Shown piece after piece: positions 483-51,005 of a stretch of 64,000 bases of DNA. Position numbers and translations under genes: made by a program. Origin of the DNA: Ectocarpus siliculosus (Eukaryota > Sar > Phaeophyceae > Ectocarpales > Ectocarpaceae); NCBI GenBank assembly GCA_000310025.1, contig FN648398.1, forward strand, positions 462,829 to 526,828, read 5' to 3'. Position 1 is the stretch's first letter. Every line of letters begins with the position of its first letter. A model generated the notes under the pieces. The model made no database searches. It saw only the letters and a program-made list of their open reading frames with translations, and was not told the DNA's origin.

Positions 483-1599
483 CGCGGATAGTTTCTACAT
501 TTTGACCGTTGGCAGTACCCAGCTGCTGGCACCTTTTGTTTCCCACTACGGGACCCCGCGCCGAGGCACCCACGCACAAAGCTACTCAACATACAACAAA
601 CAAACTCAATACTCACCTAAACAAATACACGGACGGATAAGATTCGGTTGATTGTATGTATTGTATGTATAGTATGTATGTATGCAGTTATTATATAGTA
701 AGTAGTGTGCACACCGCCATCATATGCATAATACTGTATACTGTAGGAAAGAAACAAATGTAGGTGCGTTTGCTCGTAAGGCATTGATTGGTGGTGTTCG
801 TTTGGGTGTAGGTTGATGGGTGTTGTTGATTTTTTTGTTTTGTATTTTCTTAGTATGACGCAACGAATCCATCTCTATCTGAGAGTCTAAGATAGATTAT
901 TAGCAATGAATCCATAACGTCAGAGGAAGGCTACCTGTATTTCCACGATTTCCCGCGCAGCACACAGCGACATCTCCCCTGCTGTGGGTAACAGGCTCAA
1001 CAAGACAGTTTGTTTCTTTCTTTTTGGTGTGTGTGGTGTCCCCGAGGGGACAGACCTCACACGGCGGCGGTGGCCATCAAATTGGATGTGGAATGCCGAG
1101 GAAATCCTGCTGGAACACTGCAAGCAGTGCGAACCCGGCGATTTCAAAAACAGGTAGTAGGTAGGTGTGAAAATGGCACTCATTGAACGTCAATCAGTGT
1201 TCAAACGATTAGAACAGAAACTACACATGATCCTAGCCAAAAAGCCGAGAAGGTGTGTGTGTGTACTGTTTGCGACGTGCCGGATTTTGTTCGTAACAAA
1301 CACTCGAGAGGCTTAAAACAGGAGTATTATTATTTTGGTCTGCGCGAAAGTTGCCTTGTATTCGACAAATTGCACAACAATAAGACAACAACATCGCAAT
1401 GGATGTTGCGGGAAAATATCGCTCTTGTTTTACATTGTGTGCTTGCTTATAGTAAATACTACAGTCAACAGCCATCGTTTCGTGCAACAGGCAGGCGTGG
1501 AAGCGGAGCATCATTAGGTTGGCAGCATTTGTGTAGCAGCAGGGTAATCCGCCCTTCCTTTCTTTTTTTCGAAAAATATCCATGTATGTAAGAGCTTAC

Positions 1600-5680: not shown

Positions 5681-8600
5681 GTAAGTAAAAAGTAACATGA
5701 ACGTCGCTGCTGCATCTGTCCAACTCAAGAGAGGATATACGCGTATGGACCATGGCAATCCATTTTGGCTATTGTGTGTGCCTGTTTTGTGATTGCGAGA
5801 GTTTCTGTTTGTATCATGAGGCAGAGGAGGGAGGTATGCGGGACAAGGGAGAGAAGAGAAGCGGGATGTAGAGAGATGTCATACAGGTACAGAGTAGAAG
5901 ACATGGGCAAAGACAAAATATGTAGGAGAGTAAGTCAGGGAAGACATTCTTATGCACAAATTTGGTGACGGTTGCCAATTTCTTTCGCGTCAGAGATAAT
6001 TTGACTGCGGCACAAGATCAGGGTCAGTGCAAAGCTCAAACATGCCACCTCGGCAGTAAGGGAAAGGTTTTCCTTGAAAAAAACAGTGGAAAGCCTCGCT
6101 TGTCTCGTACACCTTGTAGACTGCATTTCGACCTATTCCAACAGCCGAACCGAATGCACCTCTATTCGAGTCCTCTTTTCATGCACCGGTATTTGGCCTA
6201 TACGAAATCGTCCTGATTGAGTGGTGCTACTGAGAAACACGCGCACGCACTCAAACCGTTTTTCAACACGCAGAAATATGCCCGGGGATGGTTGGACCGG
6301 TGGACGACGGCATGTACTACTGTCTCGGCAAGGAACACGGGTACTGCGATCGACGGTCCGGCACCTGTTTCTGCAACGTGGGGTATCAGGGAACCTCCTG
6401 CCAAGAGTGCTCCTCAACGCACTACGAGCAGGGTGGCTTGTGCTACCCCAAGCTGGTAAGGTCGCGGCTTGCTGTGCATGTTGTCTGCATGCTTCCTGGC
6501 GGTACATACCCATGCGGTGACCATCACCAATAGCGCACGCCAACTTTCTTCGCGATCCCTTATATTTTTGGAACCCAAGTCTTCTCATGTTTCTAGACAT
6601 CCTCTCAGGCTGGCACGGGAGCTGTGGCGGGATTCCTTTCTGCAGGCCTCCTTGCCGTCGAAATTGAACATTCCTCATAGCCCTGCCGCTGACTCCTACT
6701 GTACATGCAATGCTGTGTCTATTCGCATATTTTTGCTTCCTCGGCACCGACCACCCATATCGCTACACCTGCAGCTATGCCCCAGCGACTGCAGCGAGGC
6801 AGGAACGTGTCACCACTCCAACGGCACCTGCTCGTGCTTGCCGCACCGGGTGGGCGACGACTGCTCCTCGCTCTACTGTTCGTCGGTGTTCAGCTCTCGT
6901 TGCACGGAATGCACCGCGGACGGTTGCACGTCGTGCGAAAGCGGCTACTACGTGGATTATTTGGGTGGCGGAGTAGACTGCCTTCCGTGCAATCGCCACG
7001 ATCCACGCTGCACAGAGTGAGCATTGAACATGCTGCCAGGCCCCACTTGAGTTGTCAGATACGACCATAGAGTCAGTGCGGTATGCTGCGGCAGGTTATT
7101 CTGTGGGATTGGTTAGGGCATCCATCCGCGCTCTGCTATACTTCTGTCATTTATGTCTCTGAATATCAAGCGGTCGTAAAACATGTCGTGCGACGTCTCC
7201 CGTACGTTTTGGTACTGACATGAGCAAAATCACCAGCTGTATGAAAATTGCCCCCAAGACCCCCAACCCCTACCCCACTCCAACCCCTTCATCGCCACCA
7301 CCATAACCATCACCATCGCAACCACTCAGGTGTGACGAAGAATCTTGCCTCGAGTGCACAGATCCGCTCCTTTTGTCGATACGTCGATCCGGGATGCGCA
7401 TCGACGACCCCGCATTACCGTTCGATGAGATGGAGAGGGAGCTGCCTCACGCTCTTGAATTCGGGACGAAGGATCCTCGATATTTCGCATCAGCGGAAGC
7501 GTTTGACGTGGTGAGTAGCAGCACCAACCGGGAGGCCAGCAAGCGTTCTGAATGGAACAAGAACATCGCCCTGTATGACACCCGAATGGCGAAAAAATCA
7601 GTAACGTTAAGATGTGTAGGTTGGTGCGCCCCACGTCGGGGCTGAGGTCCATGTTGAGCAGTAGGGTGCACAAGTGCCAGCACATCGACATTCAAAACGA
7701 ATTGGGGGGCACGATACCCCAGTGTTCGCGCAGCCTTTGTTACTCTTTATTTGAGACTCTTGAAACGACGCAATACATGAGGGCTGCTTTCGAACGTTGC
7801 TCTTCTTCAGGCTCATCGAAAGCCTTGCATGTGTCAAGCATGTTACAAACGCTGGTAGATGACGCGGCCGTCTCTGTTAACGACACCTCAACAAGACGTC
7901 TAACGTTTGCTCTAACCTTTGTCTGATGTTGTTCCACAGGTGGCCAATGCGTCCTCACCACTGAACGAAACCAGCGTGGCGTGCGCCCAAGGAGTGTTCG
8001 GGGATGACTCTTGGGCGTGCGAGGGGAAAACCGTCAGCCATCGGGTGAGCTGCGACTGCCGTATGTGCTACCCTTCTTCACGAAGCAAGGAGAACCTTTA
8101 TGTAGAACCGTTGCAACTTTGTGCTACTGCACTACCGGTAGATGTGTTGCCCGCTGGTGCAGCGGTGCACTGTTACCTCGTTGTTCGCCGAGGAAAACTA
8201 TTAAGTCTCACCTTGCACGCCGGCAAACTTCCCCCCAGTGGTGTTTCCATGGAGCCTACTAGTCAGCTCCAATGGGTGTAGGAACCCACCGAAACCCCAA
8301 CATATTCACTCGGAGGAGTGAGATGCGGTGTGGTTCAAAACGCCCCAACCAAGTCGTTCCACTATTTGAGTGGGTAGAAACGCGTGGAAGGCGGTCGCAT
8401 CTAACAGCGACCCCCCAACCAACACCTCTCGAGAAGGTATGTGGAAACCCGGGAACGATTTCGTTTTCATCCCCGGAGTACGAGGCGTTCGAGGACCCCT
8501 CGGCTTCGGCCGGGGCATACGCCGCCGCTGCGTACGGGACAGCCACCACCAACGGGACTGTCAGAGTTACCGTGGTACGCACCGGCGGCGGATACGGCAC

Positions 8601-11600
8601 GGTCGGGGTGAGGTACCGGCTGCGACACGGGACCACGGACGGGGCGGACGTTTCGCCCCACGCTTTCTACACCACCAGGTGTGTTTCGGTTTGAGTGGTT
8701 AATGTAGCAATAGAGTTCGGTAGGCTAGCAGTTTGTTGTGTGACAACCACGGATTTTTTAGCGAAACACGTTCCAAGAGGCACATGACGTTTCTGCCTTT
8801 CCGTACATCGCCCAGAATAACTCCTGACCTCCCACACGTCCACCTCGCCTCATGGAGTTCTAATTCCTACAGCGAGGGTTCGCACGACTCCCGAGTGGCG
8901 CAACTGTTCACCCTTACGATCGTTCACGGAGACTGAATCCGATCAACGTTTCGACGGTTGACGTTGTTCCGTTCAAACCGAAACAACGATATACCGGACT
9001 CTTTAAACCAAGTCCTCCTTTGGTTGTCTGTGGTATCTCTTCTCCACTGGCAGCGATGAACTCGTCTTTGACCCCGGGGTGGTAGAACTATCGATCCTTC
9101 TGGGAGTTCACGAAGATGGGGAGGCTGAAACCGAAGAGTACTTCGACCTGTTCCTCCTCGAGCCGTGGGGCGGAGCGCGCCTTGGATCGCAGCAGCGCAC
9201 TAGAGTGACAATTCTCGATGCGGAGAGCAACGGAACGGTGACCCATCACTCAACAACTTCTTTACTCTTCGACCGGGACAGCAGCGATGGCATTATCTAT
9301 GAGGAGGAAACGCAATGTTCGGGTTACGATGCCGACGATAATGATGATAGTGATGTTGTTGTTGTTGTTGCGGGGATGCTCGGGAACGTTACTCTCGTGG
9401 CCAGGGATGCGCTGGGAAGATTGAGGGGCTTTGGTGGGGATGTCTTCGAGGCGTGGGTAGAGGTTCGGGGGGAAGAGGAGGGAGAGACCAACGGGGTCAA
9501 AGGGGGCAGCGTCTCCTTGGACGGCTACAACGCCTCCGTAGGTTTGGAGTCGAATGGTATACCCTTGACGTCACCGGCGGCGGTAGAAGCAGCAACGCCG
9601 GCAATGGTTCGCGTGGAAGATCTCGGCAGCGGTGACTACACCGTCAGCTACCAGGTGCGCACCAAGAACGACACAAGGTTCAAAATTGTAAATACAAATT
9701 ATGTGTATTTACTTGTGCCAAAGGTTGTAAGGCCGAGCTGGGCACTAGACTCAAATTACAGTCTGGAACATTCTGTGCGTGTCTCTCTGTGCATCGCTGC
9801 TGCTCTCATCGTAAGATCGTTACCCGACAGAGAGATTCGAATTTGGTACAAATGGTGGAATAACAACCGGGGAACCCATCACTTGTCTCTTCCGCTCTGG
9901 TAAGCGTCGAGAGAAGGCGAAGCGCTTGTGAAACCCCATCCTCCCACTCCACATGCGGAGGTTTCTTCTGTGATTATATCAAAGGAGTTCCCTCCTGCGC
10001 CGAGGGCGCTCTCAGCACCGGCGGGGGGATATATCCTAGGCGATGCCCTTCTGCCATATCAGGAGACCTCACCAAACCTAACACTTAAATCAAATGACCC
10101 GCACTTGGAACGAAACTATTCGTGTACGCCACACCGGGAGCTGTGACAATGAAACCTAACCACCATAGGCAAAAAGAGTCGTTTCTCGAACGTATGGGTC
10201 GCACCACCCATGGCCTTCCTGAGCTTTAGCCCTATCCCTTGAATCCTAACCACAGGCTTGACTCTAACCGACCGAATCTCAACCTCGACCATTCCAGGTT
10301 TATAGCGCCGGGGATTACTTGCTTCGAGCGGCACTTTGTCGACCTGGAGGTCTGACCGGGCGCTACACGAGCGACTCCTTCTTTCAAAACCAGGAGTTCC
10401 AGAGGGTAGACAGGCAAGTTCCCGCGGCGGTGCGTATACGTTCCTTGTTAGAGTTTGGGGCAGAAGACATTGCGGCAGAGGAGTTGGTGTGAGTCTTGTA
10501 CGTTCGATCCCGAGGATCCATGAGCGCTGGCGCCCAGATCGCTCTTCGAGGCGGGCTTCACAATGGCATCCTCTGCGTTAGCCAATCACGACACCGAGTA
10601 GCTCGGTGGGTGCCAGTCATGCACGTCGACATGACGCGCGTTGAAGGCGAGGTTTGTCGGTTGATGCGTCTAAATGGCGCACGTCTACATAACGCGCTTT
10701 GGAGGCGTCGTATTTCCGTTCCCAACGCTCTCTGCCATGGTGGAAACTCTGAAAGCACACCTATGCTACTTCTGCTTGAAGTTAGAAGTACGGTAGCCAT
10801 ACCGCCTTGTCGCTGTTCTTCTTTTCCAGGGTCATGAACTTCACTTGGGGTGCGGGAGCGATCGTTGGGACCGCCACGGACTTCGCGGGAGCCCGCTGGT
10901 CGGGTCGAATCAGGCAAGTTATAACCCTTCAAGCACGGACCCAACAAGCGGTAGGCCTGGTTGTCGATCGGCCTTGGGGAACCACCACGTACACAAGTAG
11001 ATTTCTCGGCGTCAACGTTGATGCCATGGTGCGTTCAATTTGGGATTGAGATTTCTGCTCTGATTTTTCCTTCGTCGCATAGCCCTTTGAAAGACACCAA
11101 CGCACAACACGCAAGCTTCGTCAAGAACTACAAACAAGCACTTGCGCACACCAGTGTGTGATTGTCGCAGGTGCCCAGTGGTAGTAGTGCGAACTGAATG
11201 CACATTGTTCGTCTCGAACGAAACGAGGGGAAAGACGGGGGTGGCGAGCGTGGGATCAGAAGGGAGGGTTTGGTTGTTGTCAGTCTCATGTACGCGTGAA
11301 GTGACGTATCGCCGTAGGCCAACCTATCGCCACCAAATCGAGAACGAGCGCGTTAGTCTTTCATTGGATCAGGAAAAGTTGGTAAAAAGTTGGGAAATCG
11401 TATCGGCGGAGGTCGAATGCTTTGTTTATCGTACCGATAGAAAGGGGTCCTTTGCAAGCAATTCAGGGAACCAGATCCTCAGACGACACCTGCCGTGGGA
11501 AAGTATCGACATTGTTGAGTGTAGATGGCTTCTCCGGTGCCTAGGTTTGCTTTTGTCACCAGCGGACAATGATCATGCCTAGTTCCCACCAAGTGCTACG

Positions 11601-14600
11601 TAGCCGATGCAAGTATCAACTGTGAAACAGCCCCTAACAAGCACGTGCCACATCGCTGTGGACTGGGCGACATTGTATCTAGGCCTGACTACTCGGAAAC
11701 CTTCGAGTTCGAATTGGGCACGGCGGTGGGAGGAGGAGACGCGGCGAGATTATGGATCGACGGTGCTGTCATTATCGATGGCTTTGAACGTGGCAGCGGA
11801 ACTGTCGGTGATTGGGAAGGCACGGAGGAGGGGCTGGGAGGCGGGGGCACGGGCTACGTCAACCTCACCGCTGGCACCTTACATGAGATCTACGTCGAAT
11901 ACAGGTATGCACGTCCAGAAAATATGGTATCGTTCATCCTACAATGGTGGACTGGTTTGAAAGCAATCTTGCATTCCACAACCATGTTGTGTTGAGTAAA
12001 TAGCGGTTGTCATGATTAACTTCCGGATTGCATTCAAGTAGGATCGAGCACCGTGGTTTACGAGTCCCGAGTATCAATACATGTGGGAACGTACGTATGC
12101 AGATTTCATATTGAGAATGTCTGTTTGCCTGTCCGCAACTGCAATACTGATTTTGTCTCCTTCGTGGTGTGCGAACAGAGCGTTTCCTTTTTATATACGC
12201 AACCGTGCAGATTGACACACCTTTGTTCTTGGTGGCACCCAATGTTACTGAAACGTAACTTGTTGTGAGACACACTCACTCTTTCTTCCTCCCTTCTGCG
12301 TCACGACAATATTTGAACCCAATGTACGGACCTTAATAACCATGCCATCGTCAAGCGAGAGGAGAGGGGATGCCTCGCTTTACCTTGCGTGGTCCAGCCC
12401 AAGCGTTTCCCGACAAATCGTTCCCCCAATGAACCTCTACTGGTGAGTCCTTGCTCTTGCTCTCGGTTTTGCTGTTGTTGTTGTTGCTGCTGCTGCTGCT
12501 GCTGCTGTTGCTCTTGTGGCGGTTCCTGTTCTCGATGTTCTCGCCATGGTTGCTATCGTCAGATAACCAGACAGCCCGATCTTCTACCAAGCACCTCTGT
12601 CTCGCATAGACACCCAGTGGGTAAGAAAACGGTTTCAATCTAGTCACAGACTAGCCAAACAAGATTCAAGAGAGTGACTAAAGAGGCGGTCGAGGGCTAC
12701 ACGGGCACCGAAAATCTTGCGAAGAGTTTCTTCGCCTATGTGGGGGGCTCGATTATGGTCAACGCCTCAGGGGTGGGAGTGGGAGAGAGTGGCGGGAGCA
12801 CCGGAACAAGCTATCTACCCTGTGGAATCGACAGGGGTCATAGCCGGTCGTCAACTAAACGGAACGCTTCTACGTGCAGACAGTAGTGGCGGCGACCCTC
12901 AGCGCATACTTTCATCAGGTTTCCACCACTTTCAGAAAGACCAACAACTAGACGTGAGTAGTCCAACCCCCCACCCCATTCCCTGCAATCACCACAAACG
13001 ATTCCCTCAATATTAACCCCAATCCGCGTGGCAATGCACCGGAAGGGTGAGAGATCTAGGCAGTGGCGGCAGCCCACGCGTGCTAGCGGTTCGATCGGCG
13101 CTAACGTCAGGCGAGAAGAGCGAGGCGTTCGGCGAAGGGACCGTATCGGCCGTTGCAGCTCTTCCCTCGACCTTCACGATTGTGCCAAGGTGATTTCTCG
13201 GTCGTGTGTGTCGATGCGTATGCAACACCAGTGAATTGTTAAAATCTACGCAAGTGTAAGGCGGAAAAGTGCCCTACCAGTGTTCCAACGTTGCCACTTG
13301 CCGAATGTACGAAGAGGTGCTGGGCAGGGGGTGTTCTCACGTCGTCATTTCACTCTCTTTGTTTCGAACGTGAGACGTAATTTGGGGAAGTTTGTGTCCT
13401 GACGTTGGCTTGGTAAACATCTGTTGAAAACCACCTTCATGCACATCCAGACCCCAATCCTACATTCCACAGTCGCTTTACGTCCTCCCCTAAGCATCGA
13501 AGCTGTCAACCGTACTACAAGGTGCTGGAGTTGGACTCGTAAGCGGCTTACCGTAGGATGCACCTCACTAATGTTCTCACGCTACGTCGCGTTGGGCGAT
13601 GCTACGTAAGCATGGTGGATGAACACTCAGAGACGTGCGGTGCCCCGACTTCGTTGGAGCTGCAAAGTATATGGTCGAAACACTACGGCGCGCATGGTTA
13701 TAAGTGCCTCCCACCCACCTACACTACGCTTTTTCGTTGCAGGGACGCGTTTGGAAACCTTAGGGTGGATGAGATGGATGCCGACGTGGCCCCGTCCGAC
13801 CATTTTTCGGTTGTGCTGGAGGCAATCAGTTACTACAACGACGAAGATGGATCCACCACCTTGGGTGGCGTTTACGGGGCGGCGGGGAGCGGAGGCGCTG
13901 TCGTCACGGGCAAGCTGGAGTTTGACGCAGAAAACGGCGTGTTTTTGGTCGAGTACGTGCCGTTTGTGGCTGGTACTCACCTGCTCAATGTCACGTTTCA
14001 GGTGAATTGCGAGGTTTAAAATTTCTCTCTCTATTTTTTCATTTTTTCCCTCGTTTTGATTCCACGCCAAGGTGGCCCATCTCGCTCACGCACCAATCAC
14101 GTCTTACTCTTTTTCTCGAGACTGCCTTTCTTGCCTTTCCCGATGTCCCAATCGACGTGAGTTACCCAACACCCGTGCGTGCTTAGTCATCAACCGTTGT
14201 TCGAGTGGGAAACCTGTGGAGAAGGCGCACGTTCAATTAACGGTTGAAGAGAGTGTTCTTGGTAGGACCTGGGGGGAGTTCGGACAGCATCAACATATGG
14301 CAGCAGAATGCTTTGTTACTGAACTATGGTACAAATATCTTCATGAGAGGAAGCTGTATGTTTGCCTACATACCTTGGGTACATCTGAAATCGAACACGT
14401 CATGAGGTCACCATCTGTCGTCGCTTATATTTAGATTGTTCTAACCAATAACTCATGTCAAGGGAGTCCCTTCTCATCGACAGTATACCTGGGAGAGGTT
14501 TGCGGACGGCATTCGCTGAACAACGCAGCGCTTACTGATGACGGGGCAACGGGGTTTCACAGCATCAATTGGGGCCAAGCTTTGATATCGAAGTTGCTTG

Positions 14601-17600
14601 ACGCACCGGCAGACCCTCAAGCACACATCTTCGTTTTTTGTTTGTAAGGAATGGCTGTTCGAGCCGGAAGAACACGTCAAGGGCAGCCCCTTCACGGTGA
14701 CAGTTGCGCCGGGGGAAGCCTTCGGCCGGCGCAGCGACGCATGGGGGGACGCCCTGGGGAGCAGCAGCAATGCCAATAATGGGTCCCTGGAGGCGGGTGT
14801 GACGGCCTCGTTGGGTGTCCGGGCGAGGGATGTCGTCGGGAACGCGGTGGGGGAGGGCGGCGACGAGCTGGCGGTGTATGCTTTCCACCGCGAAGTCGAG
14901 GTACGGGTTTGTCTTTGACGGGCTGATGGTCATCCTGTTGATTCATAATATGACGTTGTGGATGGTGTGGGTTTCGGTCGATCGTTGATGGTCATTTATC
15001 AATCGAGAACAAGATGGCGGTGGGTTACAGGGAGACGGGTTGTGTTCATTTTGTCCGTGGCAGCGATGTTCTTGGCCCGCCACTGGGTAGTGGGTTCTGG
15101 CCAACCAAAACGTGTATTCGATCGCAGCGTTTGCCATGCCTCCCTCCAAACTGTCTGACCTCTCTCGGCGTGGGAACGGTTGGCTGGTTTTACCAGAAGA
15201 TCTTCAAAGGGAATCCACGTAGAATGTTCCCTCAAAGCTTTGTCAATGGCCTTAGTGGAGTTAGGTTGACATGATGAAGTGGTCGTCTTGTCCCTGGTAC
15301 TCGATCGGGCCGCGCTCAGCGGTCTAGACGCGAAGTGTACACGCCGGTGCCCCCCCTCAACTGCTCTATGCCTCAACTGACAAGAGAGGGTCCGCTTCAT
15401 CAACAGCAACGTGTTCATTATCCTACGTGACGCCCATCAAATTGTCTCTTCCTGCGCACCTCGACCTGGCATCGCTTTCTGCGAAAAGGCGTTCACGAAG
15501 GGAACCGTTGATGACCTTGGAAACGGTAGCTACGATGTGTGGATTACGCCCACCGTGGCCGGGCCATACTTTATCTCCTTGGCTCTCGAAGACCAGGCAA
15601 GTCTTAGTCCTAGTAGTGTTTGGTTTTGCAATTTGAAAACCTATAAAGGGTGATCGTTGAGCGGTTAACCCAGCAACCGGTTGAGTCGAGCCCATACCGA
15701 TTTTGCCGTCCACTGGGAAAAGCGATCGGCCTACCGTAGTCAATTGCGTGCGGAGTTTCGTTGAGGGTAGCAGCACCGGAAACAAGCAAGCCCGCTGGTG
15801 TTGTGACGGTTGCTGGACAAGAAACAGCGGCTGAAATGGCGTCAACCACGGCATAACACCAAATCATGTCGTCAGAAACTGTAGTGTGGCGAAAAACTAA
15901 CAATACTATATACGCACCATCTAGGGGATGCGCCGTGTGACCATCTCTCTCGTTGGAATTCTTGTTCCCGGTCACCCCAGGAGGTGGCAGACAGCCCGTA
16001 CTCGGTTGTAGTGACACCCGGCGATGCCTACGGGCCGTCTTCGTCGGCGTATGGCGGAGGTATTTCGACGGCCGTGGCTACCCTCGAGAATGTCGTTTAC
16101 GTCCAGGCAAGTTAGAAAGGAGCGTCACCCCTTTGCAACTTGACGAACGTCATGTGTCAGCTGTTGGTATGTACTGAATGGGATGCTCACATTAAGGATG
16201 ACCACACGGTGTCACGTACCCGCGGACGTGTTCCTTTCGGTTCTCTGTCAGGAATTCTTTCAAAATATTATTCAAGTTTGAGCAATAGTCACCAAGTTAG
16301 TCTACCCCCCCATTGGCCCGTCACGTTCTGCATCGCATAGTGCATCGTTCCTCGCTGCTCCAATCCTTTGAGTTGTTTTCAGAAAGGTTTCACATCAAAG
16401 GCGACACTCTTTCGCGACACTCATGCTGTGCCCTGGGACGAGCATTGTGATGGGCGATCATCCTCCGTTCTGTAAATCACAGTTGGTTCCACACCATGCA
16501 CCCTCTCGTCAACACTCGGGCATATACTTTCGGTCTTTCTTGTTTTGCCACCGATTCCTGGCCATGACGGCAGAAGTCAGACGTTGAATAACCGCTGGTA
16601 AGCGCTGTTCACATAAACAAACGATCGATCCGCCTCAGGCAAGAGACAGGTGGGGCAACAACCTGTGGGGCAGCGGTTTCAATGTGACGGCAGAGCTATA
16701 CCTCGGCGACAACGCGGCGGCGGCGACAAATCAAGGACGAAACAGTACCGACCCAGCTGCGAGCAACGAGACCAGCAGCAACACTTGGAGTTCCTATTCG
16801 GGGGAAGACGGGGAGAAGCCTTTGGTGACGTTCTTCGGGAACGGTTCCGGGATAGCGCTGGTCACGTACGTCCCTCGAGAGGCCGGTACAAGCTTCCTGT
16901 ACGGTGAGGACAAGGCTCTGTCGTATGCACTGTCTGAGTCAAACCGCCACCGAGGGAGGTGCTTCTCGCGTTCTCATTCGTTAGTTCTTTGTGCTCGTTG
17001 TCGGAAGGGTCGTGTAGAAACAGTGCACTGGTCACGAGTGTATGCGCTTCAAGCTTTCCCCTTGCAATAATGATGAGAAACGCATAGCACGAGCTATGTA
17101 GGGGCTGAAGTACCCATTGCAGTCGTACCGGGTTGATGGGTTGTCTGATCGTTACCGAGCACCTCCTCCTCCTCCTCCGCACTGGTCCAAGCGGTACAGG
17201 AATATACTTTCTCCGTGGTCACAGGCTTCTCAGTAGTACGACGCAGACAGAGATACTGATCCAGGATGTTATTCTTGAGAAACAAGAGTGTTCCTGAAGT
17301 ACCCAAATCCACGGACACGAGTAACGCTCATCATTCGTCTGTTTTCACACTCGGAAGAGTGTGTAGGTGGCGGAGGCGTGATAGCTGTGAACGACCGAAT
17401 TGAAGTTGCGTGAGTCGCCCCAGTCTTGCGTTGGCTCACAGACACATCCTATTTCTCTCCATCCAGTAGATTGAAGAGGGGGCCAGGCTCGGCGATTCTC
17501 CGGCTGTGGTTTTCCTTCAAGAGCCCGCCATATTCGTCAGAATCGAAAAGAAACCCTCGCGGTTAAGGTTATGACTTCGAATGGGCACGACGTAGGGCCT

Positions 17601-19668
17601 ACTTGCAAGTATTGCTACGTATGTAAATACACTGGGAATAAATGGAGGGCACAGCTTTATTTGCACTGTGCGTGCATGGTGTCATATTGCAACAATATAT
17701 CTTGCTCATGCTACTACATCGGTCATCTTTGACCCATCTGCATGTTGAAACTATCTGCCATCAGTTCTGTCCAAAAATGTTCTCTGGAATCATAATCAAT
17801 ACGATAGCAAAATGTTTTTCTCGCCGTCGTCCATCTCGTTGTCGATCTTGTTTTCCACCAGTCCACGTGAACGATCTCCAGGTGGCCGGTAGCCCCTTCG
17901 AGGTGAACGTTTCGGCAGGGCCGGCGCGTGGCGCAAACGCTACCGCTTCGGGCTCCGCCCTCGCCCTTGCTACCGCCGGAAAGAACGCCTCCTTCATTAT
18001 CCAGGCCAGAGATGGCGGAGCCAACCCTGCCGCCGAAGAGAGTGAAATACACGCAGACGAGGAGGGGGTGGGAGGGACGGCAGGAACGACATCCTCCGTG
18101 TTTAACGTTACGCTAACGAGGATCGATGGGGTGGGGTTGGACGGAGATCAGGAGGATAGCGTTAACTCGACCGTCGTCTACGCCGCGGTGGAGGATATAG
18201 GTGAACATGTGTAGATTCAGAATACGCAGAGGAAATCGAACCTTGAAATGAGGAATAGAAGAGACGTTCAACACGCATTGGCAAGCGAAAAGGGTTGTAT
18301 TTAGATATCATACAAACTGTGGGACAACCAACAACTTGTGAACACAGACTCTTGATCTTATTGATCTTATTCACAAGCAGGGGATGGCAAGCACGAGGCC
18401 GTCTACAACGCCACAAAGACCGGCAATTACTCCCTCGAGGTCGTTGACGCGTCCGACGGGGAGCACGCCGTGGGGTCTCCGTTCCAGGTTGTGGTAGAGC
18501 CCAACCAGGCCTTCGCGCCAGCGACGTTGGTGTGGTGGGAAAGGCAGGTGGGCATCGTAAGGAAACCGAGGGCTACGCGAAGTGCTGTCGCCACGTAAGC
18601 CATCGTCGACGTATCGTACTTCCACTGGGCGATCTCTCGTCCAAAGCTTTAAATTTAGTGCAGCTCCGCAGGTTGGTAAACAGCTAGAAGTGATCTACGT
18701 GCCCACCTTGCTCCTCGTCTCTGCGCTTCACTCTCTAGCCCTCTTGAATGACGCTCTGTGTGAAAACACCTAGGTCATCAGAGTGTCAACAGAGTGTCGA
18801 TCGGGCTCTCTCGGGCTCCCGTTCGGGAGTCTCGTACTTCAGTGACACGTTTTATCAAACCCCAATATCGCCATGGTAATTCCAAGGTTCTACAATGAAA
18901 GGGGTTTTTTTCTACTCCTTCAAACCTGCCCTTGTCCACCCAAACACAGGCACAAACTCCACTAAACGTTCACAAAACCACGCATCGGCTTCTTTGTGTT
19001 TTGAGAACAGGTGTGTGGATCGAACGTCATTCACCTCCAAGCGGTGGACTTTTGGCACAACAACATCACGCAGGGCGGGGAAGCTTTCGTGGCACGCTGG
19101 AAGCCCCGAGAGAACCAGGTTGAAACCGTCGCCACCGCCTACGAAATCGTCGCAGCAGATGACGACCGTGCTGATGCAGCTTCGGAAACAACCGAAGAAG
19201 GAGACTTTTGGACAAGCGAGGACGGTTGGGACGACACGGCTTCGATTGCCGCCGGCTTCTTCTTTCCGGCGCCTACAACCACCAACACCACCAACGCGAG
19301 CGACAACAGCGGCTCCCAATACGCATCTAGTGGTGGTGACACTGGCGCATATGTAACCGACGTCGGCGGGGGGCGGTACGAAGTCACTACGGCTGCCGTC
19401 GCGGGCTCGTATTGGCTCGAGATCGGGGTGGTGGAACCCGGCGGCCTCTGGGGAACGTACTACGAACACGGCGGCGTTGAAACGGAAGGTGCGAAACAGA
19501 AAGTGTACGTGACACCGGACGGCGTTTGTGGTTTTCTACTGGTGGTGTATTTCTGTAGATATCCCTCCAAGAGTGCTTCTACTTCATCGGGTGCTCACGT
19601 CTCTTTCCCTACCTCTCAATGTTATTTGCTGTTATTTATTTCTCGTTTTCTCTCTCTCTCTGTCTCTC

Positions 19669-19741
<73 letters not shown>

Positions 19742-22700
19742 ATCTCTCTGGCTCCCTCCCGCCCCCCTCCTCACCCGGACCACTTTCATCTCCAATATAT
19801 ATCAGTGACCTCCTGGACCCCAGAGGTCAACTGGAGGACTAAAGGCGCGGTAAACTTCGACTGGGGGCTACTCTCGCCCCAGGCTGGGGTCGACCGTTTC
19901 GGAACATCACCGTCGTCCCTTCCCTCCGGCAACCCTAGCACCAGCAACTACACTGCTTCAGAAGCATCATCATCGTCTACATCATCTGCGGAGTTTGCAC
20001 CGGAGAACGTTGCTGTGAACGGATCTTCGTATTTCTTCTTCCCGGCAGATTATTTTTCAGCCCGCTTCACCGGGTTCGGTGAGCAAGGGGTAGAGGAAGA
20101 GAGAAAGAGATGCATCGGGTGACAGCTAGAGCGAGAGAGAGCTAGAGAGAAGGACTTTTTCCTTGCCTTGCTCTATGGATTTCGCCGGGTTGCAACATTT
20201 CAATTTCCTTACGAAAACCATCGCAATCCATTCGACAAATGTCCATCCCACCAACGAACTCCACCTCTAACAGTCAAGGCCGACCTCGAAGGCGAGTACC
20301 GGTTCCGGGTCGCCACCGACAGAAGTTCGAGGGTCGCTCTGTCCGTATCCGGAGTCGAGTTGTTCGACGATCTCCTTCCAACATCCGAAACAACTGGGGG
20401 ATCCGCGGCCGACATGACAAGCGACGAGGCTTCTGCTGGAACCGCTATGCTATCTAAGGGAAGAACGGGGAGCCTGTTGCTAGCAGCGGGCGAAATGGTC
20501 CCGCTGCAGCTCCGATACGCGGTGAGGGCACATTTGTTGTCACTACCGCAGTGCCGTTCACATATGCATTTTTTGAGATCCTCAATATGGTGGCATCAAT
20601 TCCAATATTGGCGGAAAGCCCTGGAAAGAATATAAAAGAACGACATAATTGAGGACAACACATATGCCAGACAAAAGTATGCAAGAACCCCCGGCGCTTC
20701 CCTCCTTCTCCTCCTCCCCGGCCGATACCCCCCTTCCCGCCGCCGCCGTCCCACCACCCCGTCCCCCCATCCGTCCCTTATGCTGAACGCAGCACGCAAC
20801 GGGTGAGGCGTGGGTCCGACTGGAATGGACCGCCTCCCGAACAAAAGCCACGGAAGGCCTCTCCGTTGTCCCATCGACCAGCCTGTTCCACCACCGACTG
20901 GGCTGGAAGGTTGCCGTCGATTTACACCCGGCTCCGACGGCGGCGGGGGCGTCAACCGTAGCACTGTGGCCCCCGGCCCCCATCTCAGACACCGACATCG
21001 GGGAAGATGAGGGCGATGGCGGAGACGAGGAACTCGACGAAGAAGAGGAGAGTGAAGTTGGGGCAGGAGGGGGATTACACGCAGGGGAAGGGAATGATGG
21101 GACGGCCGGGTGGATGGCGGGGACGGGGCTGAAGCAGGTTACCGCCGGAAAGATGATGGAGATCGTGGTGCAGGCTAGGGACGACCACGGCAACCACCGC
21201 GGTGTTGGTGAGTGGTTTACACGCGGGAGCGTTCGGGAGGGGGTTCTGGGAAGGGTCCAACAACATCGCGCGCAATCGATGATGGGCTATTCGTCACGCG
21301 ATGCCACACCCATGTCAACCCCCCCTTGCCACTCTTTCCTCGTCCCATCAGGCGGAGACAGCGTCCAAATGTACGCGCGAGGCCCCGGGGGGGTTATGCT
21401 TCACGGTGGTGCCGTGGACACCGGGGATGGCAACTACACGGTGTCCGCCTGGCCGGTCATGGCGGGGGCTTACCACATGAGTGTCCTGGTTAGCTCGCTC
21501 GAGCCGTCGCGTTGGGCCCTGGGCTACAGGCAAGAACATCTAGTTATTGTCACCAGGAAGAATCGCAACAACAAGCGTGGCAACAGTTGTGCTTGTTCAC
21601 GACACCATCCGCAGAAAAACGCTCTGCCTTTGAACAGGATGAAGCCCTTCTCTCTGTTCGTCACGGCAACACGCGGAAGTTCAAAATCGGTCAAAAAGCT
21701 ACCTGTTGTTGACCTAGAAGGGAGGGGTTCGTATGGCATCTAGCTTGGTCTATCCCTTCACCAATCCGAACAGCCTTAGGACACTGCGTAGAGCTAATCT
21801 GTGTCACATTGGTTCCCTCGGGCATGAGGTTGACATTAACACTCTTCCCTACAGACAGCACCTGTAGGACTGACTTTACGCCCCGCCGGAAAATGACCTG
21901 CCTCGAACCCTTTCAAGCGCACAAATCAGAAGAAAACATATGCGCGAATGAGGAGGACTTCAAGTATTTTCGAAAAGATGACGGAGGGATTGCAAACCCC
22001 CAAGGTCTCAGATGACAGTCGCATGCACCTGTGACGAGTTCGGGTTACGATTCTCAAATACCCCGTCGTAGATAAAATCATGCGAGGTATTGATGGCGTC
22101 GCAACACCCCGAAACCATTGCACAAGAAAGCGCACCACGCTCGGAACAAACAACCGGGCGAAATGCGTCGTTGCCAACCTTGGGAACCCCATGTCTGGAG
22201 ATGCGATCGACGGGCAACTCTTTTTAAGTAATGAAACCCTTGATGCAACCCTCGAACCCGACCTTTCTTGTTTATTCTGGACATGATCAGGAGCGTCGAG
22301 CAAGCGATGGCCGGGGCGCACGTGTCCGGCAGTCCGTTCCGGTTGTTGGTGGTGGAGGGAGCCGTGGCCGCCAACGCCTCCTTGGCGTTCGGGGTAGGGA
22401 TCGATTCGCCCCTCGCCGGAGGCGTGTTCGGCACGTCCGCGTTTACGATCAGGCAAGGGAGACCACCCCCTGCAAAAAGGGTCAAGACATCTTCAACAAC
22501 AGCACTAGACCTAAGGATTACCACCAAAGTTAGGGGTGGCCTTTTGCGTTTCCTCCGTTCTCCTCACCCCCCACGACACATACGGGAAACACTTGAAAGC
22601 ACCACAGCACTAGCAACATCTCTACGATGAATAGGAACGGCTCCGTCTCAACAGGGACGTGGGATCAGTGGTCAAATAGCCTAGGCAAGCATCAAACAAA

Positions 22701-25700
22701 TTGTCCCTTCCAACACACCACGGTCATGAACAGAGCGAGGGATTCGATGGGGAACCGGGTGTCCTCCGGAAGCACGGGCGACTTTAACGTGGAGCTATTC
22801 CTGGCGGACGAAGCTACGGTGACGATGGGAGATGGCGTCGATCCATCCCCGGTTTCTGTCGGGAACGCCGTGTACACGGCCGGGGGGGAGTACGCGGCAA
22901 CATATAACGTTACTGTGGCGGGGGACTACGCTCTGCACGTGGGTAACTTGGCAACATCAGTTTGAACAATCACTGAAGAAGCACAGACCCACCTATCGCT
23001 CGGAAGTAGCGGATCTTTCGAAGCGTCTGGATTCTCTCGCAACGGTGTCTGTGCTTGCGTAGAAGGCACGCGAAAAACAAACAAAACGATTTTCCACTCT
23101 CCAATGTTCCGACCAAACCTTCAAAAACATCACCGCAGTTGCCGAGTCATACTCCCCCTCCCCCACGGCCCATCTCAAGTAAGGTCGCGCGTGTTCGACC
23201 ATTGAAGTACGCAGCCAAGTATTTACACTACGCCCTTCCCAACGCGTTACGCCCTTGATCAGGTGACGCAATCGTTGACGGGAGGGCACATTGCGGGAAG
23301 CCCATTCTCCCTGCACGTCTCGCCAGGTCCTTCCTACGCCGCAACATCGGTGTGCGACGACTGCGAGGCAATTTTCTCCGCCGAGGGCAATTTCTCGGTA
23401 AATTCTACAAAGCTGGTTCTCTTCTCCGCTAGGTGAGTGGCGGTTAGAGCTAGAGGTCCAGGCGGGCATGTTCGGTTTCCCTTGCTCCACCCCACTTTGG
23501 ACGCTCCGAGTAACGTTGGAGCCGTTTTTTGTTTTTTTTTTCAGTGGTTTTCCGAGCGAGGGTGCTCTGCATCTTTGTAGAGATGAAGAAGGCAGACAGC
23601 TTCGATGTAAACAACTCTATTTTCCGAAACCCGTTACATGTTTGCCTCCGCTCGACCTCATCGTGTCGATAGAAACGCTTTACTTGCCTTCGCAACGTAG
23701 TTCTGTTTTGTCCCGTGAAGCACCTCGAGCCGTATGCCTCGAACCCAACGACAAACGCCAAGGCGAAGTGCCAACAGCGCGAACCTGACATAGCAGGCTA
23801 CGAAGGAGCAACGCTGGACCTCACAGGGTATTGATTCCTCGACCACGAAATGTTTTCGTAAGTCGGGCCAGGTCGATTGGGTCGGCACATCTTAGGGTAG
23901 GCTGCTCGAGTTGGGTTGCTCCCGGAAACGACAACTTCCTAAGGTAATTCTGGCTCATCTCCTCCCTTCTCGTCCCTCTTGTCATTGGTATCAGGGACGC
24001 CTTCGGCAACACCCTGGAGACAGGCGGAGATGAGTGGTTCGTACGATTGAGAGGGGCGGAGGAAGGGGTTTCTGATGCAGAGGTGCGACATCCGGTGGTC
24101 GCCGATCAAGGAAGTGGCTCCTACAGCGTCGCGATCAAGCCAGGTATGTTATTCCTGGTGAAACTATTGCTGGTGCCGATAGTCTTGTTGTTGTGATTCA
24201 TATGTTTGGCGTTCTTGATGTCGTTCATCCTTCCAAACATTGACGTAGTCTGAGCTCTCCAGCACCTCCAAATGCCGCTTTGATATAGCACCGTGGCAGC
24301 CGAACGTTCGTGTTCACATGTTGAAGCTACAACACCCAGGAACACCACTACTTCGTACTGCGGGGAGAGGGCATCTACTTGAATAACCACAGGTCGAAAC
24401 GCATTTCATTAAAATGTGGTTCGAACAATTCTTCTCTGGTGTTTTTCCAGACAGTCTCAAGCAGCGCACAAACGTTGTGGCCACCCCGTCGCTGCGCGTT
24501 TTTCTTTTGTCCCCCCGCAACAACTTTCGATTCGATACAACAGGCGTTACTGGTCTCTACGAAGCTCAAGTGCTGCTGCTGTCAAAAGTATCAACAGAGG
24601 ACTTTTTAGCCGACTTGGGCGGGAGATCCAGAGGTGGAGGGCTAACCGCCCAGTACTACACTAACGCCCGCTTGGCTGGGAGGCCACTTGTCACAAGGGT
24701 GTGTGTTGCTGTGGATTAATCAACTTCTTCCTTCCTGCGCATGTAGATGATGCCATTAGAGGTACTCCCACCTTCCATCATCGCTCACATGCCCTCCTCC
24801 TCATTAAAATTAAAAAATCATACATATTCCCAATATATGCAATGATCTTTCCTCCCTCCCCTATGCCTTCTTGAATTCCTGCGCTACTTTGTGACCGAAA
24901 GATTGACCCTTCGATCCAGCTAGACTGGGGGTCGGGGGTTCCGCCAGGCGTCTCGAGAGTGGGATCTACGGGGGGCACGGTTGGGATTCGGTGGGACGGG
25001 TTCTTAAAGGCACAAGTCTCGGGGGAGTTCACGTTTACGATCAGCACGGGGGCCGGGGACGAGTCAAGGTGAAAACTCCGTTGGAGATGAGAGGTCTTCT
25101 CATTGAAAAGCCACGAGTCACGGATGTTGTGTTGACCACCATGCTTGCAAATGCCGCGTGTCCTACTGTCTTCACAAGTTGTTGGCCAGTAGTTATTGTT
25201 TCGTCCGTTTCTAGGGGGAGTTCGTCTTCATGCCCGGCCGGGCGGCCAGGTAAGGAGTTCGGAGGGAAAGACTCTCAGTCACCACCTTTCGTCTGCTTCA
25301 AATATCATATGTTTTAACGCAAGCTAGTCTACTGAGCACACGTCCAGCCAGCCTGCCCCATCTTGACCTCTCGGACGAGGGGAGTATGAGGGTGCGCCTC
25401 AGTGTTATCGCCGTGTCACTACCAAGACAACAAGCGCAACATCGCAAACCAACAAATTGGGAGAACTGCATGACCATCGGCAAAAAACAACGGCAGTAGA
25501 ACGCGCACGAATGCGTACTGCTACTACATACAGTATCGACTAATGAGCAGATCCGTGCAGTTATCGGAACCGGAACCACGTAATGGTCAGGGAAAGATGC
25601 TAACAGAGTGGCCAACTGACAGGTGCCTGGTTCGGACATTTGACAGGCACGCGTGTTCGTTCTTATGCTATTGGCATGGCAGATGTCGGATCCACAATCA

Positions 25701-26346
25701 AGCGCTGTTCTTGTCTTGATAATAGTTTCAAAACAGGTTCATGTCCCTTGTTGGACCTGGCTCCGGTCTCCGCCCCCCACCCCTGTCCTGCCAACGTCAT
25801 ATGCCTCCTCGGTGGCCATAGAAAGTACAATATCTCCAAAACCGCCAATCTTTTCACGCACACCTCCAAACTTCTGGATTTGGAACAAGCTCGTGGCCGA
25901 CGAACAGAGCACTCCGCTGGTTATTGGCCGGCCTAGATCTCTCTTCAACCAGAAACGCTCATTGAAAGGACGCACCCATCCTCTTTACCGCTACACTTGC
26001 ACACCACCCCCGTTCCCCTCCAATTCAACCCAGGCTCTGGATTCGAGACGAGCTCGCTATCGACACATTTTCAACGTCCCCTTCCGACCTCGTCCGGTCG
26101 ACGTCCCCCGTCCCTGACGTCACCGTGGCCTCGCAAAACGCTACCTTGCTAACAGCCGGAGAGGTGGTCAGGCTGCGCGCGGAATACGTCCACCACGGCG
26201 GCGGTGGGATCGTCCGGGCTGTGCGAGTCGTTGTGGGCTGGGAAAGCCCCGGAACGCTACAGCCCGCGCAAGCTTTGCCGTCGTTTGCGCTGTTTCCGTC
26301 GGCGGGAGAAATTGCCGGAAGTCCGTTTGCTTTTAGTGTCGTTTGA
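5041..26346 (+). CDS. giant secreted filamin/PA14/Calx-beta protein
   Basis: About 33 exons encode roughly 2,390 residues. Order: signal peptide, Cys-rich EGF-like region, Calx-beta domain, filamin repeat, PA14, five filamin repeats, PA14, three filamin repeats, PA14, ending in a last AGSPF segment and TGA at 26344. Phases agree at every junction placed except around exon 13 (12575-13060), where one exon boundary is unresolved. Start 5041 is chosen because the signal peptide then begins MVRISS and has the core LFPPVLLLVAIGS; 4948 is an in-frame alternative. Filamin Ig folds, PA14 and Calx-beta are known in adhesive or carbohydrate-binding surface proteins, so a cell-wall or adhesion role is likely but inferred. 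Six introns appear to use GC donors. The end right after AGSPFAFSVV is abrupt; a missing 3' exon is possible. Confidence 0.85.
6274..8044 (+). other. exons 3-6: Cys-rich EGF/furin-like region
   Basis: Exons 6274-6455, 6775-7016, 7330-7510 and 7940-8044. The spliced product has laminin/EGF-type patterns: YCDRRSGTCFCNVGYQGTSC, then CPSDCSEAGTCHHSNGTCSC, followed by a furin-like CTECTADGCTSCESGYYVDY and CDEESCLECTDP. More than 25 cysteines in about 180 residues point to an oxidised extracellular location. Exons 5 and 6 then run into a less cysteine-rich linker with N-glycosylation sequons (NASS, NETS). Confidence 0.8.
8437..9654 (+). other. exons 7-8: Calx-beta domain and filamin repeat 1
   Basis: Exon 7 (8437-8678) reads GTISFSSPEYEAFEDPSAS and later TVRVTVVRTGG, the N-terminal half of a Calx-beta domain. 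Exon 8 (9054-9654) continues DELVFDPGVVELSILLGVHE with EYFDLFLLEP and RVTILDAES, its second half. Exon 8 then gives a filamin-type repeat start, NVTLVARDALGRLRGFGGD, and DLGSGDYTVSYQ. The start of exon 7 uses an AAG acceptor chosen only because it keeps frame. Confidence 0.7.
10298..12442 (+). other. exons 9-12: end of filamin 1 and PA14 domain 1
   Basis: Exons 10298-10413, 10830-10913, 11683-11904 and 12356-12442. The product reads YSAGDYLLRAALCRPGGLTG, the PA14 opening RYTSDSFFQNQEFQRVDR, then VMNFTWGAGAIVG, GARWSGRIRPDYSETFEFEL, ARLWIDGAVIIDGF, HEIYVEYS and DASLYLAWSSPSVSRQIVPP. These are successive PA14 strands. Exons 9 and 10 both end at CAG/GCAAGT, and continuity of the domain requires these GC donors. 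Confidence 0.8.
12471..12518. repeat. TTG/CTG trinucleotide microsatellite
   Basis: A run of TTG then CTG triplets, with flanking imperfect copies, lies in the intron just after PA14 domain 1. It shows as poly-Cys or poly-Ser frames on the two strands, which are not genes. Confidence 0.8.
12575..13189 (+). other. exons 13-14, boundaries partly unresolved
   Basis: Candidate exon 12575-12620 (46 nt; phase fits, product YQAPLSRIDTQW) is followed by a coding-like stretch from about 12671 or 12686 to about 12822 (VEGYTGTENLAKSFFAYVGG). Exon 14, about 13060-13189, is clear: SGGSPRVLAVRSALTSGEKS, ending STFTIVPR, which joins exactly to RDAFGNLRV in exon 15. The donor of the middle piece could not be fixed. 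Confidence 0.45.
13743..19458 (+). other. exons 15-22: filamin repeats 2-6
   Basis: Exons 13743-14001, 14649-14900, 15489-15596, 15981-16106, 16639-16903, 17862-18200, 18381-18547 and the first part of 19011-19488. Each repeat shows the filamin/ABP280 pattern: an ARD..GN turn (VPRDAFGNLRV, VRARDVVGNAVGE, VQARDRWGNNLW, IIQARDGGANPA), a NGxY/aGxY strand (DLGNGSYDVWITPTVAGPYF) and a closing GSPF (HVKGSPFTVTV, VADSPYSVVV, QVAGSPFEVNV, AVGSPFQVVV). Exons 17 and 18 end at CAG/GCAAGT; the spliced reading EDQ-EVADSPYS and VQ-ARDRWGNN is exact repeat continuity. Confidence 0.8.
19459..20950 (+). other. exons 22-25: PA14 domain 2
   Basis: Exon 22 ends at 19488, exon 23 is 19806-20078, exon 24 is 20274-20521 and exon 25 starts at 20793. 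The reading gives GGLWGTYYEHGGVE, then TSWTPEVNWRTKGAVNFDWG, SARFTGFVKADLEGEYRFRV, VALSVSGVELFDDLL, MVPLQLRYAHATGEAWVRLE and SVVPSTSLFHHRLGW. This parallels PA14 domain 1 strand by strand. An acidic Glu/Asp linker follows in exon 25. Confidence 0.8.
19646..19738. repeat. TC dinucleotide microsatellite
   Basis: About 40 TC units with a few interruptions lie inside the intron 19489-19805, close to its 3' end, where they may act as an extended polypyrimidine tract. The long Leu/Ser frames here are artefacts of the repeat. Confidence 0.9.
20951..24500 (+). other. exons 25-31: filamin repeats 7-9
   Basis: Exon 25 (20793-21207), then 21352-21529, 22291-22452, 22734-22938, 23263-23432, 23995-24143 and the start of 24451-24698. 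Repeat marks: VVQARDDHGNHRGV, NYTVSAWPVMAGAYHMSVLV, HVSGSPFRLLVVEG; FTIRARDSMGNRV, YNVTVAGDYALH, HIAGSPFSLHVSPG; LFSARDAFGNTLETGGDEWF, SGSYSVAIKPG. Exons 26 and 27 end at CAG/GCAAGA and CAG/GCAAGG. Exon 28 is taken to end at 22938 (GTGGGT donor) because only that keeps frame with exon 29. Confidence 0.8.
24501..26346 (+). other. exons 31-33: PA14 domain 3 and C-terminus
   Basis: End of exon 31 (to 24698), exon 32 (24902-25068) and exon 33 (26034-26346). Reading: GGLTAQYYTNARLAGRPLVT, RIDPSIQLDWGSGVPPG, VGIRWDGFLKAQVSGEFTFT, DESRLWIRDELAIDTF, LLTAGEVVRLRAEYVHHGGG, VRVVVGWESPGTLQPAQALP and finally EIAGSPFAFSVV before TGA. The domain is complete, and the phases 0, 2 and stop agree. The following filamin repeat is cut off at its first strand. 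Confidence 0.75.
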
Positions 26347-50448: not shown

Positions 50449-51005
50449 CAACCTCCCCCCCCACCCCCTCCCAGCACTGAATCTGAAGTAACGGCTGTTG
50501 GTGCACCCCGCACCTTCCTGAGTTGCTTATTTTGCAGCCGGCGTGTTTTGGGGCTCCGCTCTTATCTGTATTCGCATTGGCATACCACAGAGGCGGGTTA
50601 TTGTTTTTAATGCCAAGTCGGACCTGAGCACCTGTTCTTATGGCCAAGTTCTTAGATTTTGGATTTTGTGAGGCTCAAGTTCTTAGCTGCTAAGTTCTCA
50701 TGTGGTGGCGCGTTCTGTAGCCGAAGCGGTTACTTGTAGACTGTTACCAACGAGATATGTAGTGCATTCGCTGCTTGAGTGATTTCTGGCTGCTTCCTAT
50801 TGACGTATCCGACAGGCCGGGGGCAAACGCGATGACGAGTGCCATTCCGAGCGTCCTCCGTAGGGCAAAGCACGAACTTTCCTTCGCCTGACCATGACCG
50901 CGCATATTAAGTACGACCCCGCAACCCGCCTACCACGCCAACTGCTCTCGCGCGTTCCCGCCAGCTATCGACAAATCAAGCTGTGCCTTCGGTTTGCAAG
51001 GCGCA

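Follow-up and report, generated by a model that had tools for sequence, protein, structure and literature searches.

Six probable U2-type GC-AG introns in a filamin/PA14 gene of the brown alga Ectocarpus siliculosus

GC-AG introns are found in animals, plants, fungi and algae, the last including the stramenopile Aureococcus anophagefferens. They account for less than 1% of introns in model organisms (PMC7072748) and for 1.3% of 2.46 million introns (PMC3033335), and their other donor positions compensate by lying nearer to the consensus (PMC2490688). In certain algae the share is raised, to 39.6% in A. anophagefferens, 22.2% in Micromonas pusilla and 7.7% in Chlorella, with G+C contents of 69.5% in Aureococcus and 65.9% in M. 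pusilla (PMC3033335). Both the donor compensation and the elevated GC-AG rates of some algae are already published (PMC2490688, PMC3033335), and our search of the open-licence literature, mostly judged by title, found no paper titled for brown-algal GC-AG introns. The six introns described here lie in a filamin/PA14 gene of Ectocarpus siliculosus, and are like the U2-type GC-AG introns known from animals, plants and fungi in having GC at +1/+2, an AG acceptor and an otherwise nearer-consensus donor (PMC7072748, PMC2490688). They differ from those of model organisms in frequency, with GC at some 4-6% of the donors surveyed here and at 6/22 in the gene, as against less than 1%. A raised frequency is shared with the GC-AG-rich algae (PMC3033335), although the G+C of Aureococcus and M. 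pusilla is much higher than the 53.5% found here, a value for the window only, i.e. the whole 64,000-nucleotide stretch analysed.

All six donors, at 10414, 10914, 15597, 16107, 21530 and 22453 on the plus strand (first base after CAG), read CAG/GC, extended to CAG/GCAAGT at the first four, CAG/GCAAGA at 21530 and CAG/GCAAGG at 22453, as a first-pass annotation had proposed. Joining them to exons starting at 10830, 11683, 15981, 16639, 22291 and 22734 gives open frames and intact PA14 or filamin motifs. The PA14 region starts in an exon at 10298..10413, ending in CAG and supported by the joined frame, PA14 paralogs and Pfam; the decoder included no more than its final 20 bases, and we set its start from frame and acceptor. 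Intron 1 (10414..10829, 416 bases, phase 2, CAG/GCAAGT ... TTCCAG/G) would lead into the PA14 middle exon (10830..10913, VMNFTWG...GRI), and intron 2 (10914..11682, 769 bases, phase 2, CAG/GCAAGT ... TATCTAG/G) into a further PA14 exon (11683..11904, PDYSETF...), which ends at a GT donor. In the filamin repeats, intron 3 (15597..15980, 384 bases, phase 0, CAG/GCAAGT ... CCCCAG/G) would join exons 15489..15596 (GSYDVWITPTVAGPYFISLALEDQ) and 15981..16106 (EVADSPYS...VVYVQ), the latter being linked by intron 4 (16107..16638, 532 bases, phase 0, CAG/GCAAGT ... CTCAG/GCAAGAGAC) to exon 16639..16903 (ARDRWGNN...). Further on, intron 5 (21530..22290, 761 bases, phase 2, CAG/GCAAGA ... GATCAG/G) would join exons 21352..21529 (...GDGNYTVSAWPVMAGAYHMSV...GY) and 22291..22452 (SVEQAMAGAHVSGSPF...TI), and intron 6 (22453..22733, 281 bases, phase 2, CAG/GCAAGG ... 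GAACAG/A) the last of these to exon 22734..22942 (ARDSMGN...). All exons after the first rest on frame, decoder and Pfam, and the introns on these together with the sequence itself, Pfam being nearly uninformative for intron 5; the paralog exon L038 adds to introns 1 and 2, and L039 to intron 2. At the level of sequence and gene model the GC donors are confirmed. The decoder model, which, judging by motif, lacks one or more exons near 13040-13190, has 23 exons and hence 22 introns over 8479-26203, if this is one gene; the annotation's count of about 32 introns was not reproduced. Upstream lies a sub-threshold Pfam match to Calx-beta. U12-type introns carry the donor motif RTATCCTT, and this type was rejected for the six, all of which begin GCAAG and lack that motif.

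The decoder was trained on other loci of the same genome (223 introns) and allowed one additional donor dinucleotide with a prior of 5%. Given GC it gained 23.5 nats and called seven sites, the six and 29405, which is outside the gene, and within the gene it picked all six; 14 decoy dinucleotides gained 0-7.7 nats, with 0-4 calls each. On the antisense strand GC gained 0.3 nats with one GC call in 16, decoys reaching 7.0 nats and five calls. On the plus strand of 30001-64000 five of 22 introns were called with GC donors, which is uninformative because decoys there reach up to seven calls. An earlier decoder with smaller training called eight GC sites, adding 20292. Banning a single site cost 0.3-3.8 nats, the weakest being 16107 (0.28 nats), and setting the GC prior of the first decoder at 1% or 0.3% kept five of the six (16107 was lost), at 0.1% three and at 0.01% one. 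Decoder support per single site is modest and prior-dependent.

The exons that follow the GC introns had been said to restore filamin and PA14 motifs, and this is borne out by the open joined frames and by Pfam scores that drop once GC is disallowed, 21530 being the one site of the six with barely any change. The PA14 model scores 37.5 bits, against 14.1 when 10414 and 10914 are replaced together, and the filamin models score 38.8 at 15597 (28.0 for read-through, which ends soon after), 44.8 at 16107 (37.0 for the alternative) and 26.9 at 22453 (18.5). At 21530, where an open GT-only alternative exists, the scores of 33.4 and 32.9 are nearly equal and hardly informative. None of the five models, one PA14 and four filamin, falls below its Pfam cut-off, and one equals it exactly; raw-frame scans gave weak matches only. 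A PA14 paralog exon that is unbroken across both PA14 junctions (L038) scores 132.9 with GC equal to GT, 114.9 with GC penalised and 74.6 with GT only, and one unbroken across the 10914 junction only (L039) scores 121.1, 112.1 and 96.1, respectively. A search of the same genome with a 488-residue query turned up no close paralog and nothing beyond distant PA14 exons on C25. Sequence, gene model and domain continuity are in this way observed directly.

A GC-AG frequency survey, which the first-pass annotation had proposed genome-wide, was run on 59 other loci (33 kinesin, 16 dynein with one more as template, and 10 housekeeping), taking part of the matches and omitting some kinesin loci for size; all 16 donor dinucleotides were treated alike and junctions were graded by margin. 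At margin 10 or more there were 84 GT and 4 GC among 88 junctions, at margin 8 111 GT, 5 GC and 1 TA among 117, and at margin 6 137 GT, 9 GC and 5 others among 151, two of these nine GC calls lacking the consensus and possibly being noise; at margin 2, 17 GC and 14 GG were found among 263, other dinucleotides coming near the GC count. The limits on this directly observed background are wide, 1.4-9.7% (5/117) and 2.8-11.0% (9/151). GC donors are about 4-6% of secure junctions, roughly one intron in twenty surveyed, with examples in genes for RPB1, dynein and kinesin. Where divergent kinesin templates were used and GC was scored the same as GT, 26 GC had come out among 110 filtered calls, many doubtful, and this scheme was replaced by GC-penalised runs with decoys and the flat 16-dinucleotide test. 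The HSP70 locus L018 (C12:3215000-3221500) was left out on account of a stop and three implausible GC introns in its model; human PRPF8 as query gave no match, which says nothing on PRPF8 absence. The filamin/PA14 gene, which was picked for its GC sites, exceeds the survey background with 6/22 modelled introns (P 0.0003-0.0015, with no correction for the choice of gene; 0.0003-0.011 when n is varied over 22-32 and the background over 4.5-6%), and Fisher's test against 12 consensus-bearing donors in 223 gives P 0.0024 for 6/22 and 0.015 for 6/32. The claim of GC use far above 1% is borne out in the gene and, with less force, in the genome; as to the suggested lineage- or gene-specific use, genome-wide use comes first, with a gene-level excess in a gene picked post hoc.

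The U1 start, read directly as ATACTTACCTG, is canonical in all six copies found (at least six exist; 41 of 2618 candidates were scored), and the one U6 copy found has the canonical ACAGAGA; a GC-adapted U1 is thereby ruled out for the copies found, as is an altered U6 for that single copy. At the seven other donor positions the six sites have 6-7 matches to the U1 consensus, the average for 137 survey GT donors being 4.15; survey GC donors at margin 6 have a mean of 4.9 (all nine) or 5.71 (the seven with consensus). This agrees with the earlier proposal that a strong donor context compensates the U1 mismatch, as far as predicted pairing goes. Predicted U1 duplex energies are -6.3 to -7.4 kcal/mol for the six, against a mean of -8.07 kcal/mol for the 137 GT donors, and lie within the range of 18 GT donors from the window model (-5.3 to -11.7, mean -7.76 kcal/mol).

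These six are very probably genuine U2-type GC-AG introns of a multi-exon filamin/PA14 gene, and the major spliceosome would remove them in its ordinary form, the +2 mismatch being offset. Canonical U1 could pair with the exonic CAG, with G at +1, with AAG at +3 to +5 and in four of the six also with T at +6, and because it can pair with these remaining positions the C/A mismatch at +2 would be made up for. We infer splicing at the six and this pairing, and also that the high rate stems from neutral tolerance: the genome would tolerate C at +2 in strong donor contexts, at about 4-6% of surveyed donors, and the filamin/PA14 gene may be the high tail of its GC-donor distribution. As other genes of the genome also use GC starts, this would be a stronger-than-usual case of a known phenomenon.

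That the true donors are GTs nearby, inside GCAAGT or further off, with the GC sites as look-alikes, is very unlikely. A GT does lie four bases downstream at four of the six sites, and at five of the six the decoder can fall back on a GT when GC is forbidden, including one alternative that is open over 21530. However, splicing at the +4 GT would lose the reading frame in all four cases, GT-only models lose the full 23.5 nats, four comparisons covering five sites lose 7.8 to 23.4 Pfam bits, and the unbroken paralog exons agree with the GC model. Somewhat less improbable, though still unlikely, is a gene-specific device in which GC donors are kept for regulated or alternative splicing of a large protein. 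GC donors are enriched in alternatively spliced genes of human, nematode and Arabidopsis (PMC2490688), none of the 24 introns that the decoder placed on the minus strand of 30001-64000 has a GC donor, and the gene's excess over background would fit; but this gene owes its selection to its GC sites, such donors are also present in genes for RPB1, dynein and kinesin, and five of the six intron lengths are not divisible by three, so that intron retention would break the frame.

An origin as mobile introners that took their GC donors from duplicated target sequence seems highly improbable. Introner elements (PMC3488318) are a route of intron gain in algae, and one of the six introns carries an end repeat: the 8-base CAGGCAAG stands at both ends of intron 16107..16638, making that boundary formally slidable, and repeats of at least seven bases through the junction occur in none of 145 survey introns. 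Yet the repeat encodes Q-A-R of the filamin motif QARD, which itself explains much of it, and the other five introns have none. Unlike introners, the six showed neither repeated copies nor inverted ends: compared with 353 kb of sequence they gave no other match, two searched genome-wide gave no full copy and one 55-base match, and their first and last 60 bases share no exact inverted match longer than six bases. Least credible is decay, with GT donors mutated to GC in a pseudogenizing gene. Six changed donors within one gene might suggest it, but the joined frames are open, the domain models reach their cut-offs, the other donor positions are unworn and nearer to consensus than in typical GT donors, and RPB1 has the same donor type.

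The preferred reading, ordinary splicing of tolerated GC donors, leaves room for a speculative extension, which we think rather unlikely, in which the +2 base trims donor strength. CAG/GCAAG occurs in all six window sites, which were reader-picked, and in RPB1, while CAG/GTAAG occurs in 0/137 GT donors at margin 6 (4.0 expected from shuffled pairing of exon and intron halves, P 0.007), 0/178 at margin 2 (5.0 expected, P 0.002) and 0/111 at margin 8 (2.5 expected, P 0.054). It was found in one of 207 GT donors with donor scoring on, and once in the first window model. Exon-side and intron-side matches are negatively correlated (rho -0.34, n 137). Otherwise fully U1-complementary donors (CAG/GNAAG) might persist almost exclusively with GC, since U1 binding to a GT version would be too tight, and GC-AG introns would then be a super-consensus class, not weakened leftovers. 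Should donors here really avoid full U1 complementarity unless +2 is C, one could measure directly how strong U1 binding can usefully become.

The raised GC-AG rate, together with a normal U1 and a window G+C of 53.5%, suggests that neither extreme base composition nor a change in U1 is required. On the survey rate, a gene finder that accepts only GT donors would break about one intron in twenty here and would wreck genes like the filamin/PA14 gene, and large proteins of this organism are therefore likely to be mis-annotated.

The first-pass annotation had read six GC-AG introns among about 32 in the filamin/PA14 gene, and this observation holds up in the sequence and the gene model, with its mechanics read correctly. 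All six donors have the form CAG/GCAAG, followed by T at 10414, 10914, 15597 and 16107, by A at 21530 and by G at 22453, and joining them to acceptor exons at 10830, 11683, 15981, 16639, 22291 and 22734, respectively, gives open frames carrying the filamin and PA14 motifs it had named. A GT lies four bases 3' of the donor at four of the six sites, and in all four cases its use breaks the frame. The fourth of these introns has CAGGCAAG at both ends (16104-16111 and 16636-16643), where QARD, a filamin motif, is encoded by the exon. Among 145 introns surveyed elsewhere in the genome, no repeat of at least 7 bases runs through a junction. A 67-base stretch (11628-11694) comprising the end of the second intron and 12 exon bases is also present on another contig (C17:3992494-3992560, 98.5%), where it adjoins a G run.

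We compared the GC sites with chance using a simple gene decoder trained on 223 introns from other loci of the same genome, in which one extra donor dinucleotide was allowed at a 5% prior. Allowing GC gained 23.5 nats over GT alone, and the decoder then called the six sites plus a single weak one beyond the gene, against gains of 0 to 7.7 nats and 0 to 4 calls for each of 14 other dinucleotides used as decoys; on the antisense strand GC gained 0.3 nats and decoys up to 7.0. Elsewhere in the window (30001-64000) there was no GC call among 24 decoder introns on the minus strand, and plus-strand GC calls were no better than decoys. That plus strand also holds, in an intron-rich genome, a stop-free open frame of 735 residues with 16 PPR_2 (pentatricopeptide repeat) stretches at 50898-53105. 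Banning GC at any single site costs little (0.3 to 3.8 nats), and in a first decoder with a smaller training set a GC prior of 1% lost 16107 and one of 0.1% left three sites, so the protein evidence matters; site by site, 16107 is therefore the least secure for the decoder.

The Pfam PA14 score is 37.5 bits for the GC model and 14.1 with GT alternatives at both PA14 sites, and the filamin score falls from 38.8 to 28.0 bits at 15597, from 44.8 to 37.0 at 16107 and from 26.9 to 18.5 at 22453. At 21530 it barely moves (33.4 versus 32.9), making this the weakest site on protein evidence. Two distant PA14 copies on contig C25 have frames uninterrupted across one or both PA14 junction positions, and both align best to the GC model even with GC penalised.

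The background rate was surveyed by protein-to-DNA alignment across introns at 59 loci elsewhere in the genome (10 housekeeping, 16 dynein and 33 kinesin; one HSP70 locus was left out for a stop in its model), scoring all 16 dinucleotides equally, without a donor profile and with a minimum intron length of 60 bases. A junction was counted only if its loss cost a set margin of score. Counts were 84 GT and 4 GC at margin 10 (n=88); 111 GT, 5 GC and 1 TA at 8 (n=117); 137 GT, 9 GC and 5 others at 6 (n=151), below which noise rises; 157 GT, 11 GC and 26 others at 4 (n=194); and 178 GT, 17 GC, 14 GG and 54 others at 2 (n=263). The nine margin-6 GC junctions lie in RPB1 (two), a dynein (one) and kinesins (six, two within one gene), two of the kinesin junctions being without consensus. 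A separate alignment, which used a donor profile and penalised GC, gave GC donors in 16 of 223 filtered introns. Twelve of these also have G at -1 and +5, a combination for which seven decoy dinucleotides yielded a mean of 1.4. CDC48, HSP90 and the remaining HSP70 loci gave no GC calls in equal-scoring or penalised alignments, and two EF2 calls under equal scoring disappeared once GC was penalised. These counts put the GC donor rate in surveyed junctions at about 4-6%, within wide limits. Light-harvesting genes stand in arrays on four contigs (C92, C232, C488 and C16); twenty of their search matches have an identical score (127.6 bits), ten on C92, with a second cluster on C16. One light-harvesting protein differs from FCP17 of 9YGV, the photosystem I structure of Macrocystis pyrifera (Phaeophyceae; PMC13219633), at five of 156 aligned positions and scores 326 bits against it, versus 197 for the next match; this single protein makes a brown alga the most likely source.

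Raised genome-wide use of GC donors in large part explains the six introns. The gene nevertheless has 6 GC donors in 22 modelled introns against a 4.5-6% background (P 0.0003-0.0015, or 0.003-0.011 with 6 of 32), an excess that is a lead and not a test, because the gene was chosen for its GC sites. Nor does anything in the snRNA genes point to an altered spliceosome, since the six U1 genes found have a normal 5' end and the U6 gene found contains ACAGAGA. Human PRPF8, a protein expected in any spliceosome, found no match in the genome search, probably a limit of the search. U1, U2 and U5 genes lie within a few kb of one another on C47 and at several places (~121700-123930, 440753 and 455371) on C479, the window's own contig, as do U1, U2 and U4 on C3. 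A U2 match at 1065-1256 (minus strand) scores 69.6 bits versus 86-144 at six other U2 places in the loci scanned (seven rows, one place twice) and is possibly a decayed copy.

With a normal spliceosome, the +2 mismatch would be offset by consensus matches elsewhere: at the seven remaining donor positions the six sites have 6 or 7 U1-complementary matches (GT donors, mean 4.15), and their predicted pairing energies, -6.3 to -7.4 kcal/mol, come near the average for GT donors (-8.07). For the nine margin-6 GC donors the average is -6.27 kcal/mol (-0.9 to -9.7). Such compensation is already in print for GC donors (PMC2490688), and PMC3033335 gives far higher GC-AG rates for some high-G+C algae; G+C is 53.5% in this window, C479:462829-526828 of a 189 Mb genome.

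Exon-side and intron-side U1 matches trade off in surveyed GT donors, being negatively correlated, and +3 is G in 77 and A in 55 (n=137). CAG/GTAAG is absent from the 137 secure GT donors at margin 6 (about four expected, P 0.007) and from the 111 at margin 8 (2.5 expected, P 0.054); with donor scoring on it occurs in 1 of 207, and the first window model had one. The same form with C at +2 is found at all six window sites and one RPB1 site. That the +2 base tunes donor strength, fully U1-complementary donors being kept almost only as GC, is a lead from a small sample with six hand-picked sites. The value of the six introns lies in this question and in the warning they give for annotation.
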